Source of the DNA: Metridium senile
Lineage: Eukaryota; Cnidaria; Anthozoa; Actiniaria; Metridiidae
Length of the DNA: 64,000 nt
Assembly (NCBI GenBank): GCA_949775045.1
Contig: OX459103.1
Coordinates: forward strand, 17,197,807-17,261,806
Reading direction: 5' to 3'
This document shows, piece by piece, positions 135 to 39,986 of this stretch. Both the position numbers and the translations under genes were made by a program. How positions within the stretch are numbered: the first letter of the stretch is position 1; each line of letters starts with the position of its first letter. The notes under the pieces were generated by a model, which saw nothing but the letters and a program-made list of their open reading frames with translations, ran no database searches and was not told the DNA's origin.

Positions 135-3100
135 ATGTCGTTGTTCTGTTCGTGTTGTTTGCTGTGGATAACATTGTTCTTTCCAGATACAGGTAAGCCT
201 ATCTCTTGGGACCAAAAGCAACTTTTACATGTATATATAGGATTATAGCTAATTCAATCCAGGATGTTGTTGAAAAAGCCTACAGCCTATCCTTCTGAAA
301 CCAAAAGCTTTAAAAGGAAGAAATTGCACCATCCTCATATACAAGTTTATAGGTTAATTCAATTAGCGTTGTCGTTAAAAAAGCCTAAAGCCTATTCCTA
401 CCGAATAAAACTGAATTGTTTGTAATCAAATTTTTTAATTATGTGTTAAATAAAGTTATTGATATTCAGCTATAAAACCTTTGATATGTGCTTGAAAACT
501 ACTAAATGACCTAAGGATATTGTAGCTGATCAATTTGAACAATGTTATTTCTATGGTATTTCTAATTAAGATGAGAGAGTTAATTTTGATCAGAAACTTG
601 CTATATATAGAATAAAGAATGCTATATATGTATATTTATATCCTCGTTACGTACACTTTCGGTAACTTTACTTCCGCCTTCATTGAGTGAAACAATGCTT
701 CGATATCGATATACACTATTGTTTATTGGGTTTACATGTATTAGAAGATATGATTGACCTGATTGAGTTTCAATCTAATACAAATGACTCCGGAATTTCA
801 AATGCAGAAACATTATGTGTATTTATATTAATTTTCCCTCGTTTAATAATTTGCTTTGGTTCTTTTGTTTTCATTTTAGATGCAGCGGCTCGGTTTACAC
901 AAGTTCCAAGAAAATTGTACGTAGTGAAGGGACAAACTGCCAGGCTTAAGTGGGCATACTCTGTTGGTAATAGAGATACGGAGTTTTATAGACGTTCACT
1001 ATTATGGTTTTATAAGTCTAATGGCAATAAGCAACTAATTGGTTATGATAATAAATCTGATGGATGGAAATTCAAAATTATAAAGAGAACGTGTCCTTCT
1101 CGGCTGCTAAGACCCACAGTACGAGTGAGTCGTGAGGATCAAGCTACGTTAGTTATCAAGAATGTTACCATGGATGATAGTGGGATTTATGTATGTTTAT
1201 TGAAGTCAAAGAGATCCAGAAAAAAAAAGAAAACCAGTGCAAGTGCTGCATCATTACTTGTTACAGGTTGGTGGAACAATTCATTTATATTTTCGTTTTT
1301 CATGTGACGTCATCAAAATGCTAAAATCTAAATAATATATCGCAGAAGGCTGGTCCTCTAATGTTTTGTAGATTTGTTTGAAAGATATTATTCCTGAAAG
1401 TTTGGTTGTTTTTTGTTGTTTTATTTTCGAGATTCACGTCACGCAACATTGTCACGTGTTTTCTAGAGCCGTAAAAAGATGTAAATTAGCCACAAATGTC
1501 ACCTTTTTCGCCTGGTACATGAAAAATTGTTTGTTGATTAAACTTTTCACCTCTAAAGCGTTTTCTTTTGAGTTAAATTATAATTTCGACGTCTGAACTT
1601 GTGTCCGCCATGTTGGTGTACACAAGCTGTTCACCAACATGGCGGCGCCATACATTTCACTGTAATCAAGGCGCATATTCACTGGCTCCATATTCGGTCA
1701 CAATTAGTCCATTTACGCTTAGATTTTAGCAAATCATACATTGGTCATCTTGCTTTAAGCTGATGTGGTCTAAACTGCTATTTATATCGCAGAAATATCT
1801 GGTTAATAATATAATCAACACAACCGGAAATGCTTTTGCCATACATTTCTTACTAAAAATCTTTAGTAATAGCTTGTCTATAACTCTGCCAATATTCATT
1901 CTTCTGACCTCATATTTTCTAGCACTGCTAAATAAAGTATGTGCCTCATGAGTTCAGTGTTTGTTTACAGTTTAAGCGACAATTTAGTGAAGACTGAAAT
2001 ATTCATACTGATTCACTTAAACTTTGTCAGTTTAATGATTGATTGGTTGTTTAGTTAGTTAAATGAAGGGTTTTTTGATTAATTAATTGATTGACTGACT
2101 GACTGAGTGGCTGACTAGTACTGACTTTTTCTTCTGTTTTCTTACTTATTTAGAAACCCCAGTTTTTACAGTCAAACCAAACACAATAACAACCATCATT
2201 GAACACTCGGTGCTCAATGTATCATGTACAGCGGTTGGTTCTCCACCACCTAAAGTCACGTGGTCAAATCCCGTTACCAAAGCAACCATAGTACAAGGAA
2301 TCGGTAGTGCTGTACTACGTATATCAAATGTTAAAAGAAGTCAGAATGGGATTCAGTACGAGTGTCAAGCTTCTAATAATCCTAACGAAGATCCAGTTAG
2401 AGCAATGACTACTGTTGTCGTATATTGTAAGTATGAGATCGTGTGTCATAGAAAAGCATATGTAATATATACAATATGAGCGGCCGATCTGTATCCGATA
2501 TACAACGGCGAGTCGAAGACGAGCCGTTGTATATCGGATACAGATCGGACGCGAATATTGTATAGAACTTATGAAAGTCCAACGTTAGTTCTTTCATATT
2601 TTACTAAAATTGTCAAGATAAATGTAAATCTGGCCGAGAAAATTCAAGTTGAAACTTATGCAAATCAGGACGAAATCTGTATGAGATTTACAACCTCCGT
2701 CACGGACGTGAATTCTTTTGTCAATTGCTCATTAATTATTCATGAATTTTATAAACTTATTTACCAAAGTAGCTAAGACTCAACTAATTTGTTTAAAATG
2801 GTTCGTGTGAAGCTTTCAGAATTTGTAATGGTTGATTAAGTTTGACATGTTTAAATCTGGTAAATCGGGTGTTTATAGGTTGTGATGGAATACTGAGGAT
2901 GTAAAGCTACGGTAATACGAGCAACAAATTCGTCCAACTTGTCTCGCAACATCGCTGCAAAACAAGTTGGAAAGCGATGTTGCTCGTTTATCCACCCGCG
3001 TACCAACTTGTCTCGCGTCAAAATGGCTTGTTGCAAGTTGAAAATGTTTGTTGCAGAAAGTAGAAGATCGTTCTACTTTTTGCAACAAAACTTGTAGATA

Positions 3101-39500: not shown

Positions 39501-39986
39501 TTCATTCATTCATTCATACATTCATTCTTTCATCCAATCAGGTCGTAAATATTCAAATGATATCTTTATTAATCATCGTTCCTCTCTCTTTCTAGGAAAA
39601 CTACTGAGGCAACTTCCGACGTAAGAAAATGTCATTTTTGGTGTTAAATGTTAAAGACATTGACTGTAATATGATTTGTTTAACAGAATGTAGAGATGGC
39701 CTCATCAGCAGCTCCACCACCGCCTTATGCCAACGTGCACCAGACAAACGCTGAATATGAACCAGTTAGACAAACCAACAACATACCATCCACAGAAGAT
39801 TCGACATACGAGATACCAGGAAATCAACATACCAGTGAGGACCATTACCAACAACTGAACCCTGAGACAATGCAATACGATCCAAAAGTACAGTACGTTA
39901 ATACTGATCAACGTAACGATACGTATGAACCGTTACGTAACAGACCTACTGAGTATCAAAGCCTGCAAAAGTATTCTAACGCTTAG
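33533..39986 (+). CDS. Receptor gene D: V-like / I-set 2 / FN3 / FN3 / TM / ITAM tail
   Basis: Exons: 33533-33590 (signal peptide [16 protein letters not shown]), 35858-36241 (V-like), 36696-36977 (I-set 2), 37597-37869 (FN3-1), 38100-38447 (FN3-2 and stalk), 39141-39243 (membrane helix), 39596-39620 and 39687-39986 (tail). They join to exactly 591 codons, a 590-aa protein. I-set 1 is reduced to a stub at 36579 that soon reaches a stop. Skipping it keeps frame because cassettes are phase 1-1. The FN3-2 acceptor reads TTTAAG rather than TTTTAG. The tail starts differently from A and C (Pro-rich, PPPPYANV), lacks the ITIM-like VQYExL because of a deletion, and keeps YEPL-x6-YQSL (Y571/Y581) and YVNT. 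Confidence 0.85.
33742..35502. mobile_element. Nonautonomous pogo/Tigger-like element, 1.76 kb
   Basis: Ends CAGTTTGGTGTCTCCATTAG and CTAATGG-type complement (CTTAATGGAGCTTCGACTG) contain the TTAAGCGGACA words typical of pogo/Tigger termini. TA flanks each end (33740-33741 and 35503-35504). Intron 1 of gene A is the empty site: TCCTCATATACAAGTTTA joins directly to TAGGTTAATTCAATTA. Extra internal AAGCGGACAC words are present. No transposase frame is visible. Confidence 0.8.
36290..36535. repeat. TTGA/CTGA microsatellite, gene D
   Basis: Degenerate GATTGACTGA repeats in the V to I-set 1 intron, at the same location as in A, B and C. Confidence 0.85.
36579..36612 (+). pseudogene. I-set 1 exon stub of gene D
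   Basis: A TTATTCAG acceptor is followed by AAACCCTAACTTTTAGAACC, matching the start of I-set 1 in A and B (AAACCCCAGTTTTTACAGTC). It reads ETLTFRTIAR and then a stop, and the rest of the exon is missing. It is a deleted domain cassette. Confidence 0.75.
37099..37225. repeat. Inverted-repeat element shared with genes A and C
   Basis: Best-preserved copy: GAGCCTTTGCATCGAAGCGA and TCACTTCGATGCAAAGGCAA are inverted around AATTGTCCCTCAAGGTGTTA. Located before FN3-1, as in gene A. Confidence 0.65.
38505..38870. repeat. Tandem repeat of about 63 bp, six units, gene D
   Basis: Unit TTTGTTTGATGTGTTGTTCT, then CTTGTCACAAGGGTTTTTCT, then CAGGATCATATGTGAGTTGA. Gene A has a single copy at the same place (about 7089-7165), so the unit expanded in gene D after duplication. 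Confidence 0.85.
39255..39540. repeat. ATTC/ATCC microsatellite, gene D
   Basis: CATTCATT and CATCCATC repeats in the intron between the membrane and 25-nt exons. Confidence 0.9.

Follow-up and report, generated by a model that had tools for sequence, protein, structure and literature searches.

A tandem array of candidate ITAM recognition receptors with a diversifying V domain in the sea anemone Metridium senile

A tandem array of immunoglobulin superfamily (IgSF) genes in the sea anemone Metridium senile is probably a lineage-specific cnidarian set of recognition receptors, each passing the membrane once, ending in an ITAM tail and presenting a diversifying V domain. The stretch of DNA analyzed (the window) comprises 64,000 nt of contig OX459103.1, and the array studied occupies positions 135–39986, where four paralogs (A, B, C, and D) lie head-to-tail on the + strand, as the preliminary description had it. 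A function of the array in self/non-self recognition is plausible; the sequence is compatible with a self ligand, a conspecific non-self ligand, or a microbial one.

Splicing at GT/AG joins gives open frames with no stop codons of 600 aa for gene A (135–8004), 662 aa for gene C (21433–32439), and 590 aa for gene D (33533–39986), which reproduces exactly the three frames reported earlier. In these models, signal peptides were called by eye, extracellular domains were recognized by Pfam, and the transmembrane (TM) helix coincides with the peak of hydrophobicity in each protein. Gene A begins with a signal-peptide exon (135–192; an open frame ending at a GT donor in phase 1), followed by a V-set exon (880–1266), a single I-set exon (Ig1, 2154–2426), two FN3 exons (6022–6294 and 6666–7028), a TM exon (7269–7371), a micro-exon of 25 bases (7589–7613), and a tail exon with the ITAM and the stop codon (7684–8004). 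Gene C has the signal-peptide (21433–21490) and V-set (22876–23226) exons, both I-set exons (Ig1, 23770–24042; Ig2, 24482–24760), FN3 exons at 25431–25655 and 26034–26381, and a TM exon (26499–26607); its micro-exon (32027–32051) is preceded by a 5.4-kb intron containing a 55-bp minisatellite and is followed by the tail exon with ITAM and stop (32119–32439). The exons of gene D encode the signal peptide (33533–33590), the V-set domain (35858–36241), the second I-set domain (Ig2, 36696–36977), the FN3 domains (37597–37869 and 38100–38447), the TM helix (39141–39243), the micro-exon (39596–39620), and the tail, again with ITAM and stop (39687–39986).

Gene B (13821–18793) consists of a signal-peptide exon (13821–13878), two V-set exons (V1, 14561–14947; V2, 17159–17533), and two I-set exons (Ig1, 18159–18431; Ig2, 18506–18793). 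Pfam finds V-set and I-set domains in it and no fn3, and a tblastn search with the window proteins detected no FN3, TM, or tail exons between B and C. Gene B could be a 3′-deleted gene, a secreted form, or a donor of V and Ig exons that are spliced to C. Of the two structural features previously ascribed to all four paralogs, the shared phase-1 cassettes hold for the V, Ig, and FN3 exons, all of which are in phase 1 at both ends, except that B has no FN3 exons and none for the TM helix or tail; the single membrane helix and tyrosine-rich tail are present, with an ITAM, in A, C, and D and are missing from B. The entry phases are 1 for the TM exon, 2 for the micro-exon, and 0 for the tail exon. 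Since the V, Ig, and FN3 exons are flanked by phase-1 introns, a single exon can be lost while the frame is kept. The second I-set is missing from gene A and the first from gene D, where about 20 bases of it can be made out by eye at 36579 (36579–36600); among the complete genes A, C, and D, both I-set exons are found only in C.

With the window proteins as tblastn queries, family exons fell into 27 merged regions, all on the + strand, one of which is a decayed copy of the tail. Many satellite arrays are present in the window. Those between B and C include 121 copies of GTCGGTCA with a 100% match, and Pfam matches in an open reading frame of this array were taken as low-complexity artefacts. 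No matches were obtained with Rfam against the window at the gathering score or with NCBIfam against the three window proteins.

V-set, I-set, and fn3 matches above the Pfam cut-offs, together with one TM helix, identify A, C, and D as IgSF receptors with FN3 domains. No phosphatase, kinase, or neogenin C-terminus family was detected by Pfam in these three proteins at E ≤ 0.001. The best solved match of the V domain of D is PD-L1 (E = 4.3e-6, residues 1–112); 40 of its 42 solved matches are PD-L1/CD274, and the remaining two are MXRA8 and CD79b. In the printed alignments, W25 of the D domain falls on the B-strand cysteine of PD-L1. A tryptophan occupies this position in all nine V domains compared (five from the window and four from the sea anemone Exaiptasia diaphana), and each of the nine has exactly two cysteines (D numbering): C73 precedes the presumed D strand, and C107 lies in the F strand. 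The canonical B-F disulfide of V-set domains is therefore absent. The V domain of D thus differs from that of PD-L1 in having the additional C73 and in having W25 in place of a cysteine, and the proteins differ as a whole in that D presents its one V domain from a stalk of Ig and FN3 domains and ends in an ITAM tail.

An ITAM is a YxxL/I-x6-8-YxxL/I motif in a cytoplasmic tail, the type of activating signal that human immune receptors employ. The ITAM tail of the preliminary description is real in A, C, and D and is retained in the Exaiptasia protein P0002: all three complete window tails contain the strict form YxxL-x6-YxxL with the same ITAM residues, and P0002 has YQALRNHPSVYQSL at the corresponding place. 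When each tail was shuffled 20000 times, 73 to 160 of the shuffled sequences contained a strict ITAM. At the C-terminal end, the tails of D and P0002 are identical at 29 of 59 positions (E = 2e-13 in a single comparison), and those of A and P0002 at 29 of 60. P0002 ends like the window tails but lacks their upstream motifs AEYEPV and YEIP. A tail is present in one of the four Exaiptasia models (P0002) and missing from the other three. A database search with the tail of gene C alone returned 59 candidates, none at E ≤ 1; this tail is a poor query because it departs from the words common to A, D, and P0002. The tail as a whole has a dN/dS of 1.04 among the paralogs.

The V domain had been described as variable and the remaining domains as more conserved, and the exon comparison agrees. 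Mean pairwise dN is 0.34 for V, followed by Ig1 (0.23), FN1 (0.18), FN2 (0.14), Ig2 (0.13), tail (0.12), TM (0.08), and signal peptide (0.07). Mean pairwise dS follows the same trend and is highest in the V exons (0.475, 10 pairs), with 0.25 for Ig1, 0.33 for Ig2, 0.26 and 0.24 for the FN3 exons, 0.18 for the signal peptide (6 pairs), and 0.11 for both TM and tail (3 pairs each). The parallel between dS and dN across exons indicates that the contrast between V and the rest is not due to selection on the protein alone. Over the whole V exon, pairwise dN/dS lies below 1 (0.58–0.88); the values for Ig1, Ig2, and FN2 are 0.93, 0.40, and 0.57. Values near 1 for the tail and Ig1 allow for relaxed constraint.

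Comparison with introns shows a clear contrast in one pair of genes only, A and D. Two stretches of the intron before V have identities of 90.8% (349 sites) and 89.0% (155 sites) between them, against 74.1% for the V exon (378 sites); the difference between the V exon and both intron stretches gives a Fisher p = 2.8e-10. Some 165 bases of A between these two stretches have no counterpart in D, and identity after the V exon is 83.8% over 37 aligned bases. In FN1, FN2, and TM of these two genes, though not in the tail, conservation is higher than in their introns. The pair B-D lends no support to the pattern, the introns beside its V exons having diverged as much as V or more.

Variability within V is highest in the stretches that match the BC, C′-C″, and FG loops. 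These stretches, assigned from sequence landmarks and picked after the variability was seen, have a dN/dS of 1.14 compared with 0.58 in the rest of V, and the FG loop alone has a dN of 1.20 and a dS of 0.67. A bootstrap of pN-pS in the loops spans −0.07 to 0.15. Since this interval includes zero and the loops were chosen post hoc, positive selection on them is suggested only. As the sole cause of V divergence it is unproven, V dS being raised too; a raised dS would also be expected if whole V exons had been replaced by diverged copies.

Gene A is a mosaic with a D-like intron 1 and a C-like tail. In the first part of intron 1, it matches D at 94.3% (197/209) and C at 79.3% (172/217), whereas from micro-exon to tail it matches C at 95.7% (425/444) and D at 85.5% (361/422); in the 5′ flank, the two are about equally close to it (80.5% for D, 79.5% for C). 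These blocks point to exchange between neighboring genes. Gene conversion inside exons was rejected as a candidate: two V pairs reached p < 0.05, with global p values of 0.41 and 0.23 after correction.

The closest proteins among the matches listed are from Exaiptasia diaphana and bear contradictory automatic names. P0002 (678 aa, named ‘neogenin’) has a V domain, two Ig and two FN3 domains, a TM helix, and the ITAM tail. P0122 (713 aa, ‘receptor-type tyrosine-protein phosphatase F’) is 54% identical over 66% of A, and its model has the V+Ig1 unit repeated, perhaps through a model error. The models of P0003 (339 aa, ‘twitchin-like’) and P0123 (372 aa, ‘igLON 5’) lack TM and tail, and that of P0003 also lacks Ig domains. 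All four share the V domain of the window genes with its two cysteines, and names such as neogenin, RPTP-F, twitchin, and IgLON mask the family. Contigs of identical length are given for P0002 and P0123, and likewise for P0003 and P0122, which suggests that the family is probably clustered in Exaiptasia too. Next among the matches listed come a partial Actinostola protein (P0124) and then corals (Montipora and Oculina; P0004–P0017 and P0106; E 1e-54 to 1e-26). The coral Ig-FN3 proteins, several of which are receptor kinases, have the nearest non-anemone ectodomains among the matches listed, at 27–33% identity. The tail of coral P0013 contains six Yxx(V/L/I) motifs, and a strict ITAM was not found in the two coral tails checked (P0013 and P0008). 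Most other matches listed are contactins, titins, and unnamed FN3 proteins, with roundabout also among them; none is identical to a window protein. These relatives and the domain content bear out the earlier assignment to a tandem IgSF receptor family, and the nearest matches point to a cnidarian source that is most likely a sea anemone and not a hydrozoan.

In a tree of V domains, the five from the window and the four from Exaiptasia form separate clades (100/99). The three window rows also group together in the FN3 tree (100/99), where Actinostola is nearer by path than Exaiptasia. By these trees, the array is apparently a lineage-specific expansion or has been homogenized within each lineage. 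Orthology to a single-copy adhesion gene, which the preliminary description had named as the outcome that would count against it, was not observed, the V domains being multi-copy and in separate clades in the two anemones.

A receptor of this architecture would bind a variable ligand with the BC, C′-C″, and FG loops of its membrane-distal V-set domain, the I-set and FN3 domains serving as a spacer or stalk that presents them. Contact with ligand would cluster the receptors, a Src-type kinase could then phosphorylate both ITAM tyrosines, and a Syk-type kinase would dock and bring about an effector response. Unequal exchange and exon loss between neighbors may renew the repertoire.

Among more specific functions, the proteins may, tentatively, be germline-encoded innate receptors that recognize microbes or algal symbionts, with diversity residing between paralogs and not between individuals. 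The diversity of V among the paralogs and the retention of the ITAM are consistent with this, as is the binding of bacteria by the mollusc ITAM Ig receptor CgIgIT2 (passages of PMC11999971), although five V exons in the window make a small repertoire. It is rather unlikely that the array is an allorecognition locus functionally like Alr1/Alr2 of Hydractinia, in which polymorphic V domains act as self labels in homophilic or cognate pairs and govern aggression or tolerance between clones. The tandem IgSF cluster, the V-set tip, the tail with its ITAM, and the fast divergence of the V exon fit such a locus, and passages on the Hydractinia candidates describe clustering and ITAM/ITIM motifs there (PMC12065747, PMC11067881, PMC11876637); however, the FN3 pair and canonical I-sets are not known from Alr genes, and dN/dS in the loops is not significantly above 1. 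It is likewise unlikely that the array is part of an anthozoan allorecognition complex, one whose V-set receptors are polymorphic, carry an ITAM of their own, and are unrelated to Alr or related to it only distantly; if it were, sea anemones would gain a self/non-self locus, and V-set-plus-ITAM recognition would have been used repeatedly in Cnidaria.

We also doubt that the genes encode adhesion or guidance molecules of the contactin, neogenin, or DSCAM sort that diverge fast through relaxed constraint. The Ig+FN3 layout, the matches to contactins, titins, and roundabout, the automatic names of the Exaiptasia relatives, and the dN/dS near 1 of tail and Ig1 would fit such molecules, but Pfam found none of the intracellular domains of these families in A, C, and D, the ectodomain is shorter and has a V-set tip, the ITAM is strict, and the copies are lineage-specific. 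A decaying array, or haplotype copies set in tandem by the assembly, is very improbable: the 3′ half of gene B is missing, one Ig exon is gone from each of A and D, and satellite arrays are numerous, but three full frames have no stops, the exon losses preserve the frame, dN/dS is 0.40 in Ig2 and 0.57 in FN2, and the dS of 0.24–0.48 between paralogs in their V, Ig, and FN3 exons is large for a comparison of alleles.

The reading as an array of ITAM recognition receptors can be set beside known systems. Anemones and corals can tell clones and partners apart, and allorecognition behavior in anthozoans is described in passages of PMC7563517; no anemone gene was named in the titles and abstract starts found. 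A search of the anemone and sponge allorecognition and IgSF literature, with most subscription papers outside it, turned up no title or abstract start that describes the family of this array. The recognition question becomes directly testable with an array that is defined, has a fast V exon, retains its ITAM, and is related to proteins of Exaiptasia, a laboratory model.

The array resembles Hydractinia Alr1/Alr2 in that both are clustered IgSF transmembrane proteins of a cnidarian with ITAM/ITIM tails. According to passages of the papers concerned, Alr genes are clustered (PMC11067881, PMC11876637), also in Podocoryna (PMC13119343), Hydractinia allorecognition candidates have ITAM and ITIM motifs, and its genome encodes signaling molecules associated with ITAM/ITIM (PMC12065747). 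The two differ in the FN3 pair and canonical I-sets of the window genes, which are not known from Alr genes. This comparison draws on such passages, and kinship with Hydractinia Alr is conjectural; no entry is named Hydractinia among the 120 matches listed, which include unnamed entries. The mollusc receptor CgIgIT2, which has Ig domains, a TM helix, and an ITAM and recognizes bacteria, differs in having five Ig domains, and FN3 is not mentioned in the passages of its description (PMC11999971) on which this comparison rests. Clustered invertebrate IgSF receptors with an ITAM were already known; those of this array combine V-set, I-set, and FN3 domains in an anthozoan.

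The coding end of the cytoplasmic tail is repeated behind two of the four Ig/FN3 receptor paralogs (A–D, in head-to-tail order). Decayed second copies of the ITAM-coding tail end lie directly 3′ of the stop codons of A (8072–8143) and D (40027–40090), with a DNA identity of 84%. In A, the copy spans 24 residues at 75% amino acid identity, and its reading frame differs from that of the stop.

Tandem arrays are found both between and within the receptor genes. Between B and C, GTCGGTCA is repeated 121 times in a perfect array (19897–20867), and the C intron between the transmembrane and tail exons contains a minisatellite (28215–30132) whose 55-bp unit occurs 35 times. 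Both are possible exchange points. The first intron of C carries an inverted repeat (21750–22056), with 142-nt arms that are 94% complementary and separated by a 23-nt gap, which looks like a small mobile element. Intron 1 of D holds an insertion of ∼1.76 kb (33742–35502) that is absent from the corresponding place in A, and introns of A (2538–2755) and B (16293–16502) have a repeat in common, with 91% identity.

The flank beyond the array contains a sulfotransferase-like fragment (40768–41127), a 433-aa ORF (47384–48685) for which a Pfam search returned no match, and, on the minus strand, a DDE_3 transposase ORF of 362 aa (49848–50936). Two more FN3-like exons on the plus strand (62369–63726), one exceeding the Pfam cut-off and the other falling short of it, belong to a separate gene that seems to extend past the end of the window.

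Among relatives of these receptors in the coral Oculina patagonica, the Ig-FN3 proteins P0013 and P0106 have similar ectodomains and two types of tail, kinase and multi-YxxV. Contigs of equal length are listed for both, and the two possibly constitute a paired-receptor-like set.
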